Positions 6,109-57,783 of a stretch of DNA of 64,000 nucleotides are shown piece by piece. Position 1 is the stretch's first letter. The number at the start of each line of letters is the position of its first letter. The notes beneath the pieces were generated by a model. That model was given only the letters and a program-made list of their open reading frames with translations, had not been told where the DNA came from and did not search any database. The stretch covers positions 62,001 through 126,000 of the forward strand of contig NZ_JARXHY010000012.1 in assembly GCF_031127815.1 (NCBI RefSeq), given 5' to 3'. The position numbers and the translations under genes are program-made. This DNA is from Pelagicoccus sp. SDUM812003. Its GTDB lineage: Bacteria; Verrucomicrobiota; Verrucomicrobiia; Opitutales; Opitutaceae.

Positions 6109-7176
6109 ATGGAGTGTAGGTCGTTTTTTCATACAATGGCCACCTCCTGCGATTTCAATTTCGGCATGATACTGGAAGGCGATCCGAGCGCCTTAGCGGA
6201 TGCTTATCAGCGATTTGCCCAGGTGCCGGTCGATCTCGACTGGTCTCGCCAGTCGCCCGCCGAGCGTCTCGTGGCGCCTCGCACCATCGCCAAGCCCGTT
6301 TCGGTCAGCGCCCCGGGCACCTTCTCGAAAAACGCCATTCGCACCCTGCGCCTGGAGCCTACGGAGCGCCCGGGCTGGTGGCTGGAGCGCACTGACATCC
6401 CGGATTCCCGCCCGATCAAGGTTTCCATCCGCAACGTCTGGACCACCGGCGAAATCGTGAGCAACATCGTACTGCGCTCCGGTTCGATCCACAACTACGT
6501 TCGCCTAGTGGAGCACATCATCGCTCTCAAGCAGGGCATGGATGTCGACAACCTGGTCATCAAGCTCGATTCGGGCGACCCACCGCTCTTCAACGAAGGC
6601 TCGAAAGAGCTGGTTGAAGCCATCAATTCCGCAGGCCGTCGCGAGCTGCCGGATCAGGAACAGGTGCGCTACTTCACGGTGAAGCAGCGCGTCTCGCTGC
6701 TGACCCCGCACAACGGCTTTCTGGTCATCGATCCGGTGGAGGAGGGCAGGTTCGCTCTGGACATCGATTGCGTGCGCGACTTTCCCAACGCCATCGGCCA
6801 GCAGCGCATAAAATTCGTGCACAACGAACGCTCGTTCCACTACGGCGCCACCGCTCGGACCAACAGCACAGCTCGGCAGAAGCTGATGGTCACGACCTTG
6901 GGAAAACTGTTTCCCGAGTCGCGAAACCTCGGCTACAATCGCAAGAACGTGCTCATCGCCGGCAAGCGCCGGTACGTGAACGAGCCGACGCACTTGGAGA
7001 ACGGCAAGTCGCTGGAAGCCGCGTGGCACCGGGCCATTCTCGATCTGCTCGCCGCCTTGGCCTTGATCGACGAAGGCCGCTTCGTGGGTCGGATCATCGA
7101 CTACAAAGGCGGCCACTATCCGGATGTGGAAATGGTCAAGCTGCTCTACGCCAACCAGCTGCTGGTCGAGGTCTAA
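6109..7176 (+). CDS. LpxC-like protein (UDP-3-O-acyl-GlcNAc deacetylase family), divergent
   Basis: The 355-residue protein has the two-domain layout of LpxC, the zinc deacetylase of lipid A synthesis. Recognisable landmarks are RLVEHIIALKQGMDVDNLVI (the Glu-His pair at 135-136, matching the catalytic Glu and first zinc His), an ALDIDCVRDF stretch, TART at 248-251, and a C-terminal YKGGH with His336 matching the catalytic His. The usual HKxLD zinc motif reads HRAILD (307-312), so His and Asp are one residue further apart than the family's H-x3-D, and ARTFGF reads ARTNST. These changes suggest a paralogue with altered or lost activity rather than the housekeeping LpxC. The ATG at 6109 has AAGGGTG upstream at good spacing. 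A second ATG at 6136 is possible. It stands alone, divergent from the oxidoreductase. Confidence 0.7.
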   Translation: MECRSFFHTMATSCDFNFGMILEGDPSALADAYQRFAQVPVDLDWSRQSPAERLVAPRTIAKPVSVSAPGTFSKNAIRTLRLEPTERPGWWLERTDIPDSRPIKVSIRNVWTTGEIVSNIVLRSGSIHNYVRLVEHIIALKQGMDVDNLVIKLDSGDPPLFNEGSKELVEAINSAGRRELPDQEQVRYFTVKQRVSLLTPHNGFLVIDPVEEGRFALDIDCVRDFPNAIGQQRIKFVHNERSFHYGATARTNSTARQKLMVTTLGKLFPESRNLGYNRKNVLIAGKRRYVNEPTHLENGKSLEAAWHRAILDLLAALALIDEGRFVGRIIDYKGGHYPDVEMVKLLYANQLLVEV

Positions 7177-7533
7177 GGTCGCGGTACCGTCCGTAGGGCG
7201 CGGCGTTGACCCGCTGTCTCCCGTCTGCTGCCTCTCGAAGCGATAGGGTTGGCTTGTCGCCTCGGCGCGACGACCGACAGTGGGCTACGGCGTGAAGATC
7301 CGTGGGGATAGCCGCGGCCTTTCTTCAAATACCTAAGAGAAAAGACTAAAGTTTTTTCGAAGAGCGCCGATTAGGTAGGGTATCCTAATGGGCTTTTAGG
7401 CTTCCACTCCTAAGCCCGGAAGGGTCGCAGACCCGTAGCTGGTCCCCGCCAGCCGCATGTTTCGCGTCGTTTAGCAACAGCTCGCTCAGTTTTGGAATCC
7501 ACCCGAGCTCTAACTCTAAACCCGAATCATGAC
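7177..7533. other. Intergenic region holding a cluster of RNA hairpins
   Basis: This 357-base gap contains a run of short perfect stems at 7370-7453, listed separately. The first part (7177-7340) shows nothing I can name. AT-rich sequence at 7325-7360, immediately before the hairpins, is a plausible promoter location, but no clean -35/-10 pair is visible. Confidence 0.5.
7370..7453 (+). ncRNA. Candidate structured leader RNA (four consecutive hairpins)
   Basis: Four stems follow each other closely. ATTAGG (7370-7375) pairs with CCTAAT (7384-7389). GGCTT-tt-AGG (7391-7400) pairs with CCT-AAGCC (7409-7416). GGGTC (7422-7426) pairs with GACCC (7430-7434) around a GCA loop. GCTGG (7438-7442) pairs with CCAGC (7449-7453) around TCCCCG. 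TTAGG and CCTAA occur in both of the first two stems, so 7371-7375 could instead pair with 7409-7413, as in a switching element. The cluster ends about 80 bases before the ATG of the secreted protein at 7534. I do not recognise it as a known riboswitch class. Confidence 0.45.
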
Positions 7534-7926
7534 ATGCAAAAAAAGCTTTTAACCTCGATCCTCTCTGCCGCGCTTTTTCTGAGCGTCGCCTTCGTGCAGG
7601 CGGACATGGAAACCGAGACGCCGGAGCAAGGACTTAGCGAGATCGTCGAGCTCTACAAGAGCCAGGACTGGGAGACGCTGGTGAGAAATCGCTGTCTCGA
7701 TAGCAAGCACGCCGAATCGGAGGCCGCTCTGCAGGCCTTGATCGCCAGCGTGAGCAGGCAGTTTTCCGACAAGGATCTACGCGAAGCCATCGTGAGCAGC
7801 TACGAAGCGGCTCTTAAATCCAAGCCGCGCATCGAAGCGGAGGGCACCGTAGCCATATTTTCCTGCGATCTCGGATCCGTGAAGCTTTCCAAGATGGACA
7901 GCGGCGTCTGGGGTCTTCGGTTCTAG
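7534..7926 (+). CDS. Small secreted protein of unknown function
   Basis: This 130-residue protein begins MQKKLLTSILSAALFLSVAF, a clear Sec signal peptide probably cleaved after VQA. The mature part is acidic, helical and about 110 residues long, with two cysteines (in NRCLD and FSCDL) that could form a disulfide in the periplasm. I chose the ATG at 7534 over an in-frame TTG at 7492 because the signal peptide starts there. No Shine-Dalgarno sequence is visible. A strong terminator follows at 7985, so it is a single-gene unit, and a hairpin cluster lies in its leader. I recognise no family. Confidence 0.75.
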   Translation: MQKKLLTSILSAALFLSVAFVQADMETETPEQGLSEIVELYKSQDWETLVRNRCLDSKHAESEAALQALIASVSRQFSDKDLREAIVSSYEAALKSKPRIEAEGTVAIFSCDLGSVKLSKMDSGVWGLRF

Positions 7927-7984
7927 TTCCAGGACCGGGTTGTTTTCTAGAGTTTGTTTAGTTAGTTTGTTTGATCTGAATGAT

Positions 7985-8017
7985 AAGCCTCCGGGGTTGG
8001 TAGCCCGGAGGCTTTTT
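7985..8017 (+). terminator. Rho-independent terminator
   Basis: An 11-bp perfect stem, AAGCCTCCGGG (7985-7995) with CCCGGAGGCTT (8004-8014), has an 8-base loop and is followed by a run of five T (8013-8017). It ends the transcript of the secreted protein and isolates topB. Confidence 0.9.
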
Positions 8018-8102
8018 CGCGTCCGGAGAAATGGGTCTGGCCGCGGCGACGAGACGTTGACATCCCCGCGTCCGCCGCTTGGCTCTGCAGCCTCCCATTT
8101 TC

Positions 8103-10478
8103 ATGAAAGTTGTCCTCGCCGAAAAACCTTCCGTCGCCCGCGACATCGCCAAGCATCTCAAGGCGAACCAGCGCCGGGATGGCTATCTGGAAGGGGACGA
8201 CTGGGCCGTCACCTGGGCTTTCGGGCACTTGGTCGAGCTGAAGGAGCCTGAGGAGTACAGACCGGAATGGAAGGCTTGGAAGATCAGCACCTTGCCCATG
8301 ATCCCGGAGCGATTCGAGTTGAGAGCTCGTGGCGACGACGGGGCCCGCAAGCAGCTCGAGACAGTGAAGCGCCTGTTCGAAGCTTCCGAGGAGATCGTTT
8401 GCGCCACGGACGCTGGCCGAGAGGGGGAACTGATTTTTCGCTACATCCTGGAATGGGCCGAATGCCTTGGGAAGCCGATCAAGCGCCTCTGGATCAGCTC
8501 GCTCACCGGGGCGGCCATCGCCAAGGGCTTCGCGGAGCTGAAGGACGGAGCCACCTTCCAAAACCTGTACCTAGCCGCTCGCTGTCGCAGCGAAGCGGAT
8601 TGGATCGTGGGCATGAACGCCACGCGCTACTTCACCGTCGAGCACGGCAAGCGAAACCTGCTTTTCAGTCTGGGACGAGTGCAGACGCCGATCCTCGCCA
8701 TGATCGTGGGGCGCGATCTGGAAATCGAAGGCTTCAAGTCCGAAGACTACTGGGAGGTTCACACCAAATGCCGCGAGACCCGATTTCGCCATCTGGGCGG
8801 AAAGATCGAAAAGGAGGAGCAGGCCAAAGCGCTGCTCGAAAAGGTGGTCGGCCAGCCGCTGGTGGTGAGCGACGTGCAAAAGAAGGACGAGCGAGCAAAC
8901 CCGCCGCTGCTCTTCGACCTGACCGAGCTGCAACGCGAAATGAATCGCCGGCACGGGTTCACCGCCGACCAAACCCTTCGCATCGCACAGAACCTCTACG
9001 AGCAAAAGCGCATCACTTATCCGCGCACCGACAGCCGATACCTTTCGAGCGATCTTCAGCCGACCATCGGCCCTTTGCTGCGAACGCTCCAGCCGCTGAA
9101 GCGAGAGGAGATCGGCCGTCTCGATCTCGAGGCTCTGGAGTTTAGCAAGCGCATCGTGGACGACTCGAAGGTTTCCGACCACCATGCCATCATCCCTACC
9201 GACGACCTTCCAGGGAATCTGAACGAGGACGAAAGCAAGGTCTACGAGGCTATCGTTACGCGATTGATTTCCGTTTTCTATCCGCCGTGTATCAAAGCGG
9301 TCACTACGGTCGAAGCTCAGGCTGCGGGCGAGGGCTTTCGGGCGCGCGGCACGGTGCTGGTCGATCCAGGCTGGCAACTGCTCTATCCCTATCTGATGAG
9401 CGGGACAGGCGCTCAGGCAGCTAAGAAGAATGCTAAAAGCAAAGCCCGGAAAACCGCTGAGCCTGAGGAAGAGGAATCCATGATGCCGGATTTTCAGGTG
9501 GGCGAAAGCAATCCTCACGATCCGTGTATCGAGAAATTTAAGACAAATCCGCCGCGCCGCTTCACCGAAGCTACCTTGCTCGCTCTCATGGAGACGGCGG
9601 GCAAAATCGTCGACGACGAGGAGCTGAAGGAGGCTTTGAAGGAAAAGGGCGTCGGCACGCCAGCCACGCGTGCCTCGATCATCGAAGTGCTGATCCAGCG
9701 TAAATACGTCGAGCGCAAGCGAAAGAATTTGATCAGCACCGACAGCGGGCGGCACTTGATCGCCTTGATCAAGGACGAACGGCTCAAGTCTCCCGAGCTG
9801 ACGGGCGAGTGGGAGTTTCGTTTGAAGAAGGTGGAGCGTGGCGAATATGATCCTGAAACCTTCATGTCGGAGGTTGTTGAATACACGCGTGAGATCCTAA
9901 GCAGCAAGTCCTCCGATACCATTGATTTGAAAAACCTCGGCCCTTGCCCGATCTGCAGAGCTCCCGTCATGCGCGGACATTCTGGATACGGATGCTCCCA
10001 ATGGCGCGAGGGGTGCGGGTTTGTCATCAAGGACGGAACGCTGGGGCTAACCTTTAGTCCGGAGCTCATGCGAGAGCTGCTGTTCAATGGACGCACTTTG
10101 GAAGCCCATGCGCTGCAGGAGAAGGGAAAGAAGCTCTTCGGCCACATCGCGCTCGGAAAAAAAGGGAAACTCGGCTACGAGCTCATCGAGATGGCCAAAG
10201 GCCCGGGCGACGATAGCGAAATCGGGGCCTGCCCCGTTTGTCGGAGCGCCGTCGTGGAGGGTCCCAAGGGCTACGGCTGCTGCAACTGGAAAAATGGCTG
10301 CAAGTTCGTTATCTGGAAGGAAGTCGCCAAACGTCCAGTGAGTCTGGAGGAGGCCAAGCTCTTGCTCGAAAAAGGGGAGACCGAGGTTCTGGAGGGCTTC
10401 ACCTCCAAGGCGGGCAAATCCTTCTCCGCGAAGTTGAAGGTTGTGGGAGCGCGCGTTCAGTTTCAGTTCGTGGACTAG
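8103..10478 (+). CDS. topB: DNA topoisomerase III (type IA)
   Basis: The 791-residue protein relaxes and decatenates DNA by passing single strands. The N-terminal Toprim domain starts MKVVLAEKPSVARDIAKHL and carries ATDAGREGELI with the acidic metal ligands near residues 103-108. The catalytic tyrosine is Tyr306 in RITYPRTDSRYL, and GVGTPATRA further on is also typical. After the catalytic core come two C-terminal topoisomerase zinc-finger-like repeats. Both have CPxC...C...C spacing, near residues 625-655 (CPICRAPVMRG) and 710-740 (CPVCRSAVVEG). A Lys/Ala/Glu-rich linker lies near residues 445-470. The ATG at 8103 is preferred over an upstream TTG because the family consensus starts there. 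It stands alone between terminators. Confidence 0.95.
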   Translation: MKVVLAEKPSVARDIAKHLKANQRRDGYLEGDDWAVTWAFGHLVELKEPEEYRPEWKAWKISTLPMIPERFELRARGDDGARKQLETVKRLFEASEEIVCATDAGREGELIFRYILEWAECLGKPIKRLWISSLTGAAIAKGFAELKDGATFQNLYLAARCRSEADWIVGMNATRYFTVEHGKRNLLFSLGRVQTPILAMIVGRDLEIEGFKSEDYWEVHTKCRETRFRHLGGKIEKEEQAKALLEKVVGQPLVVSDVQKKDERANPPLLFDLTELQREMNRRHGFTADQTLRIAQNLYEQKRITYPRTDSRYLSSDLQPTIGPLLRTLQPLKREEIGRLDLEALEFSKRIVDDSKVSDHHAIIPTDDLPGNLNEDESKVYEAIVTRLISVFYPPCIKAVTTVEAQAAGEGFRARGTVLVDPGWQLLYPYLMSGTGAQAAKKNAKSKARKTAEPEEEESMMPDFQVGESNPHDPCIEKFKTNPPRRFTEATLLALMETAGKIVDDEELKEALKEKGVGTPATRASIIEVLIQRKYVERKRKNLISTDSGRHLIALIKDERLKSPELTGEWEFRLKKVERGEYDPETFMSEVVEYTREILSSKSSDTIDLKNLGPCPICRAPVMRGHSGYGCSQWREGCGFVIKDGTLGLTFSPELMRELLFNGRTLEAHALQEKGKKLFGHIALGKKGKLGYELIEMAKGPGDDSEIGACPVCRSAVVEGPKGYGCCNWKNGCKFVIWKEVAKRPVSLEEAKLLLEKGETEVLEGFTSKAGKSFSAKLKVVGARVQFQFVD

Positions 10479-57594: not shown

Positions 57595-57670
<76 letters not shown>

Positions 57671-57707: not shown

Positions 57708-57783
<76 letters not shown>

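Follow-up and report, generated by a model that had tools for sequence, protein, structure and literature searches.

The 357-base gap between an lpxC-like gene on its 5' side and the gene of a 130-residue exported protein on its 3' side is best explained by a sigma-28 (FliA)-type transcript whose structured 5' untranslated region (UTR) acts in cis on its own message, a reading to which we give a probability of about 0.6. The promoter is strongly predicted from its sequence and the structure moderately so; the mechanism is the part that we infer, as we do the start site, the partner and the post-transcriptional effect. What the comparison of sequences supports is the promoter match, the conservation of the leader, its co-occurrence with the gene and hairpins with some covariation. 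The gap was analyzed within a window of 64,000 nucleotides (contig C12:62001-126000 of the 5.75 Mb genome G000), and the comparison set consisted of eight genomes of the genus, that of the window included.

A preliminary description of this DNA had placed four consecutive short stems at 7370-7453 and read them, together with a competing stem, as the geometry of a switching leader. All four stems are present as drawn, and so are the doubled motifs on which the competing stem was built: TTAGG at 7371-7375 and 7396-7400, and CCTAA at 7384-7388 and 7409-7413. On this single sequence the folding is only slightly above chance (for 7365-7460 the MFE is -38.4 and z is -1.69, with 12 of 200 shuffles equally good), and one sequence does not prove a structure; the MFE fold contains hairpin 1 but has hairpin 2 in a different register. 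It is through comparison with relatives that the region becomes significant, but its boundaries differ from those first proposed. Stem 1 overlaps the predicted -10 element; stems 3 and 4, in the form drawn, are specific to G000; and further downstream, outside the interval, is a longer stem, P4. The features are collected in Table 1. The comparison supports the original claim of a conserved, structured leader that precedes the gene of an exported protein, matches nothing in Rfam and shows some covariation; it does not support the switching geometry.

Table 1. Features of the gap and of its flanking genes, in window coordinates.
Feature	Position	Strand	Remarks
lpxC-like gene	6109-7176		PF03331 match
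CTAAAG	7346-7351	+	overlaps start of -35 octamer
-35 octamer, TAAAGTTT	7347-7354	+	part of predicted sigma-28 (FliA)-type promoter, 7346-7373
Promoter spacer, N11	7355-7365	+	
-10 octamer, GCCGATTA	7366-7373	+	
Hairpin 1, preliminary description	7370-7389	+	ATTAGG 7370-7375 / CCTAAT 7384-7389
Hairpin 2, preliminary description		+	TGGGCT 7389-7394 / AGCCCG 7413-7418; TAGG 7397-7400 / CCTA 7409-7412
Hairpin 3, preliminary description		+	GGGTC 7422-7426 / GACCC 7430-7434
Hairpin 4, preliminary description		+	GCTGG 7438-7442 / CCAGC 7449-7453
Predicted 5' UTR, ~155 nt	7379-7533	+	start placed ~6 bp after -10 octamer
Three-codon frame, ATG GGC TTT TAG	7388-7399	+	at leader start, in 5' strand of P2
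Hairpin P2	7389-7418	+	in 6/6 leaders, region folded alone
P3 region	7422-7453	+	in G000 two short hairpins, 7422-7434 and 7438-7453
Hairpin P4	7469-7521	+	stems 7469-7474/7516-7521 and 7479-7484/7504-7509
Conserved P4 loop, CTCAGTTTTGGA	7485-7496	+	
Gene of 130-aa protein	7534-7926	+	N-terminal hydrophobic signal-like segment, judged by eye
Probable terminator of unit	7987-8017	+	GCCTCCGGG...CCCGGAGGC-TTTTT, read directly from sequence

The sigma-28 consensus is TAAAGTTT-N11-GCCGATAA, as given in PMC2859248 (also PMC7286023 and PMC8325347). With TAAAGTTT-N11-GCCGATTA, the site at 7347-7373 matches 15 of the 16 consensus bases at the exact spacing, and it is the sole site with at least 13 matches in the 64-kb window (spacers of 10-12 scanned). 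Ten simulated windows of equal dinucleotide frequencies, searched on both strands with a spacer of 11, yielded no site with 15 matches and one with 14. This strong match to the consensus predicts a sigma-28 (FliA)-type promoter that would overlap hairpin 1. A sigma-70 scan of 7100-8150 found no housekeeping promoter. The other five leaders score 11, 11, 12, 11 and 12 of 16 and fit the E. coli -10 element less well (for example GTCGAATG in G004); TAAAG, the N11 spacing and CGA are kept in all six, and the 14-base stretch from CTAAAG to the -10 octamer has a mean identity of 34% among the six genomes.

Flagellins (38 matches) are found in all eight genomes, including G002 and G005, which are without the leader-gene unit. 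A close version of the promoter lies 134-136 nt upstream of one flagellin gene per genome, and these eight sites score 12 of 14 in seven cases and 11 of 14 in one. The scan covered 30 of the 38 flagellin loci; 22 of the 30 have no site at that distance, four of them with an 11-scoring site elsewhere. Random 330-base stretches, drawn from a pool that includes the flagellin loci, scored at least 12 in 29 of 2000 cases and at least 11 in 121 of 2000. The strict pattern CTAAAG-N14/15-CCGATW occurs at four sites in the window's own genome versus two in a reversed control: at the leader, at fliD (CTAAAG-N15-CCGATA, 41 nt before the ATG), at a gene of no known function for a 72-residue protein, and once within a reading frame. 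No flagellin gene of this genome matches it. The gene of the 72-residue protein (L116 1261-1479, minus strand, on G000:C23) has its sigma-28-type site 21 bases before the ATG; the protein has no Pfam match above the cut-off, and an anti-sigma factor is one guess. Upstream of the 6S RNA, TTGAC is found instead of a sigma-28-type site in all eight genomes, and a conserved AAAAAA...CAAA stretch lies upstream of this promoter in each of them (L060-L067). A 6S identity for the leader itself was ruled out, as the 6S RNA lies elsewhere in 8/8 genomes.

The aer promoter of E. coli has its start 6 bp past the -10 octamer (PMC2859248). With the same spacing here, we predict a start at about 7379, uncertain by a few bases. 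The first TTAGG is located in and just after the predicted -10 element. The core of hairpin 1 (4 bp, UAGG/CCUA) is kept in five of the six leaders and broken in G004; this hairpin is probably not an RNA stem of the predicted transcript, because its 5' arm overlaps the -10 element. A promoter element can mimic one arm of a switching hairpin.

The leaders of G000, G001, G003, G004, G006 and G007 align over their full length, those of G001, G003 and G007 being near copies of each other. From the -10 element to the start codon, the mean pairwise identity is 71% (15 pairs, six genomes). The values for comparison are 46.5% in the 150 bases upstream of the promoter (mean of 15 pairs), 68% in the coding sequence, 42% at its third positions and 34% at fourfold-degenerate sites. 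A model of the leader, R1, searched with strict filters, matched 6 of 250 genomes of the family, all of the window's genus, and a profile of the exported protein found the same six among 252 genomes. Four R1 matches outside the family (E 0.054-0.076, in 372 genomes of the order) and a second match in G006 (E 0.088) were taken as chance. The motif is present in one copy per genome, before the same gene in all six, and so far only in some genomes of the Pelagicoccus group; it is lineage-specific. In G001, G003 and G007 the lpxC-like neighbor is on another contig while leader and gene stay together; thus, the leader travels with the exported-protein gene and not with lpxC. Elsewhere in the gap, a dispersed short repeat, about GTCGCCTCGGCGCGACGACCGACAGTGGGCTA, was observed at 7248-7283; it has several copies each in G000 and G004 and one match each in G003 and G012.

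No homologue of the protein was found in G002 or G005, nor any degraded leader (best E 2). The gene after the exported-protein gene (8103-10475) is, as we take it from its sequence, a topoisomerase. In a topoisomerase tree rooted on paralogues, some nodes of which are weak, G005 branches first and G002 is placed among the carriers. The G002 gap between the lpxC-like gene and the topoisomerase (L046) contains, by eye, a GCCTCC...GGAGGC hairpin with a T-rich tail, resembling the terminator-like hairpin that follows the exported-protein gene. Because G002 sits among the carriers and keeps this similar hairpin, the sequences suggest that leader and gene were lost together, at least in G002.

The small exported protein named in the preliminary description is a 130-residue product predicted, by eye, to carry a signal-like N-terminal segment. 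Homologues of 60-63% identity are present in five of the seven other genomes of the genus (G001, G003, G004, G006 and G007); weaker protein matches, including one in G005 at E 0.03 with an internal stop, were not counted as homologues. Scanning genome contigs with the single protein query gave no match, and scanning with the protein alignment gave four named records, three of Pelagicoccus and one of Verrucomicrobiae bacterium DG1235. Pfam returned nothing above the cut-off, and a sequence search of solved structures nothing below E 0.8. The AF2 model (pLDDT 80.8) had no Foldseek match at E<=0.001. With VIA-align it matched many NTF2-like/ketosteroid-isomerase chains at Z 5.3-6.3, below the level proving relation, and the top row of the comparison reached Z 7.9; a common arrangement alone can produce values of this size. 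From the model, the protein perhaps has an NTF2-like fold. The probable terminator hairpin of the unit was not listed by the terminator scan, and in G003 and G004, too, the gene has a hairpin of this kind after it.

P2 and P4 are the dominant hairpins of the ensemble in all six genomes when folding of the whole leader begins at the predicted start, with 7-13 and 11-16 expected pairs, respectively. Folding the sub-regions alone gives the long P4 in 6/6 leaders and P3 in 5/6 (not G000). In the five relatives P3 is a single hairpin ending in ACGCATGT or GGCATGT; in G003 it is absent from the best fold of the full leader. G006 loses P4 when upstream bases are added to the fold. The z-scores of P2 are -2.0 to -3.1 in the five relatives and -1.4 in G000. 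Those of P3 (-2.8 to +1.1) and P4 (-0.6 to -3.0) are mostly ordinary, and the whole leader scores -0.7 to -2.9. The P4 loop, CUCAGUUUUUGGAUAC, is nearly invariant while its stems change.

The structure drawn on alignment A4 was derived from the same six sequences on which it was tested, three of them near copies, and it pairs 82.2% of 230 cells, compared with 79.1% in shuffled alignments (4 of 500 as high) and at most 45.8% when the structure is slid along the alignment. Covariation in homologues, which the preliminary description had named as a check, is seen to some extent: eight pairs are changed on both sides among the six leaders, compared with 3.0 in shuffles (5 of 500 as high) and up to 6 in slid versions. 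The covariation score is equaled by 17 of 500 shuffles, and the count of further pair types (24; 157 of 500 as high) is not above shuffles. An earlier drawing that included hairpin 1 gave 86.7% paired cells versus 84.7% shuffled (46 of 500) and 4 doubly changed pairs versus 1.4 (8 of 500). For alignment A1, in which upstream bases are present, RNAalifold returned a covariation term of +0.5. Overall, the aligned sequences lend the leader structure moderate support; the covariation is modest because the six leaders are few and related.

We propose the following mechanism. The promoter at 7346-7373 would start a transcript at about 7379, probably a single-gene one, and its 5' UTR of ~155 nt would fold into P2, P3 and P4, presenting conserved loops, chief among them CUCAGUUUU(U)GGA, which caps P4. 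A little-structured start region would come next, and then the small exported, perhaps NTF2-like, protein. A trans-acting partner (an RNA-binding protein or a small RNA), or the ribosome itself, would read the loops and thereby adjust translation of the message, or its stability, as part of the motility programme. The terminator scan listed none within the leader; control of translation or stability is therefore likelier than attenuation. Pairing of the P4 loop with the start of the gene beats most shuffles only in G006 of the six genomes, where 0.016 of loop shuffles and 0.058 of start shuffles are as good.

The main rival makes the leader a precursor from which a small RNA acting in trans is derived, with the P4 loop as a seed that pairs with other messages. 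E. coli MotR derives from the sigma-28-driven 5' UTR of motA (PMC10578931), so promoter type and origin would be alike, and a seed would be well served by a loop that stays conserved and unpaired while its stem changes. However, the terminator scan lists none within the leader, the leader precedes the same gene in 6/6 genomes, and against the start regions of flagellin or fliD, the only targets tried, the P4 loop paired no better than shuffles in 7/7 tests. We regard this alternative as doubtful.

We also considered roles for translation within the leader. A frame of ATG, two codons and a stop is present in all six leaders, with TGA for TAG in G006. A ribosome at this frame could open P2 and couple translation to folding of the remaining leader. 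However, in a transcript from the predicted start the ATG would follow after only 9 bases, and most of a Shine-Dalgarno-like sequence would be missing. The start and stop codons occupy positions that may be conserved for other reasons, from which conservation of the frame could follow, and two codons give no codon-level signal; this coupling seems to us quite improbable. A broader version, in which the leader is a genus-restricted RNA element of the flagellar regulon whose three-codon frame and P4 loop jointly gate translation of the exported protein, is one on which we would place a low expectation; if true, it would link motility state to envelope export post-transcriptionally. A short protein encoded in the leader was rejected, as only the three-codon frame is kept across the six and indels do not come in threes. 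Four of the six leaders have a four-codon frame (M-A-R-M or M-A-G-M before the stop), which was taken as chance.

Conservation could instead act mainly at the DNA level, through the promoter and a regulator site near +1 (the TAGG...CCTAA inverted repeat), the remaining leader being incidental. The stretch from -10 to about +15 ranks among the most conserved parts of the leader and contains an imperfect inverted repeat. However, ~150 bases are conserved, as far as the start codon, and within them the loops stay the same while the stems change; we give this explanation little credence.

There remains the ligand-binding riboswitch of no class known to us that would switch by exchange of TTAGG and CCTAA. 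The leader appears structured, and the preliminary statement that it fits no riboswitch class familiar to its author agrees with Rfam 15, in which a search of 7170-7560 found nothing up to E 10; the gathering-score matches in the window are two tRNAs, both away from the leader. These are adjacent genes of equal score (57595-57667 and 57708-57780). Besides the doubled motifs, the reading is favored by RNAalifold, which, given the six leaders with upstream bases, picks the competing pairing, in which the first UAGG pairs with the second CCUA, GCCG/CGGC extends this stem and the first CCUAA pairs with the second UUAGG, and by G001, whose best fold with upstream bases adopts it. However, the competing stem of 7371-7375 with 7409-7413 has 0.0 expected pairs from the predicted start in all six leaders, because its TTAGG lies before that start and hence outside the RNA; read-through from an upstream start could still yield an RNA that includes it. 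Even with upstream bases, the pairing reaches 0.6 (G007), 1.0 (G003) and 1.6 (G001) expected pairs and stays at 0.0 in G000, G004 and G006. It was rejected as kept mainly in the three near copies and dependent on bases upstream of the start. Both CCTAA copies are invariant in 6/6, leaving no compensatory change, and the sole compensatory cell comes from a misalignment of G004. G004 breaks the first TAGG, and G006 the second TTAGG. Among the six leaders, no mutually exclusive pairings maintained by covariation were found. With one copy per genome, before one gene in one genus, and no terminator listed within it, the leader is unlikely to be a ligand riboswitch, and the TTAGG/CCTAA exchange strikes us as very improbable indeed.

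As a cis-acting element, the leader would be a candidate for post-transcriptional control in flagellar regulation of a verrucomicrobial genus, and an orphan exported protein tied to motility would gain a testable function. Literature searches found no paper on small RNA in Pelagicoccus; those on Verrucomicrobia with sigma28/flagella or structured RNA did not describe the element among the matches listed, and among the papers on Pelagicoccus with flagella, one on rhodopsin had nothing on the locus in its accessible part. The candidate promoter resembles the sigma-28 (FliA) promoters of class-3 flagellar genes in 15 of 16 bases and in exact spacing, and similar sites precede flagellin and fliD in the genus. 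Unlike known FliA promoters, it would drive this exported protein, which was found in six of eight genomes of one genus. The riboswitch leaders of Rfam 15 are likewise structured, conserved 5' UTRs, but the present leader matches none of them at the gathering level or at E<=10 and is confined to one gene in one genus. The small RNAs that E. coli derives from UTRs under sigma-28 control, MotR among them (PMC10578931), would share with it a sigma-28-type promoter followed by a UTR RNA; the leader described here differs in having no listed terminator. Campylobacter CjNC1 and CjNC4 are sigma-28-dependent non-coding RNAs (PMC4626219) and are alike in placing an RNA under a flagellar promoter. There the RNAs are called non-coding, whereas here the RNA would be the leader of a gene.
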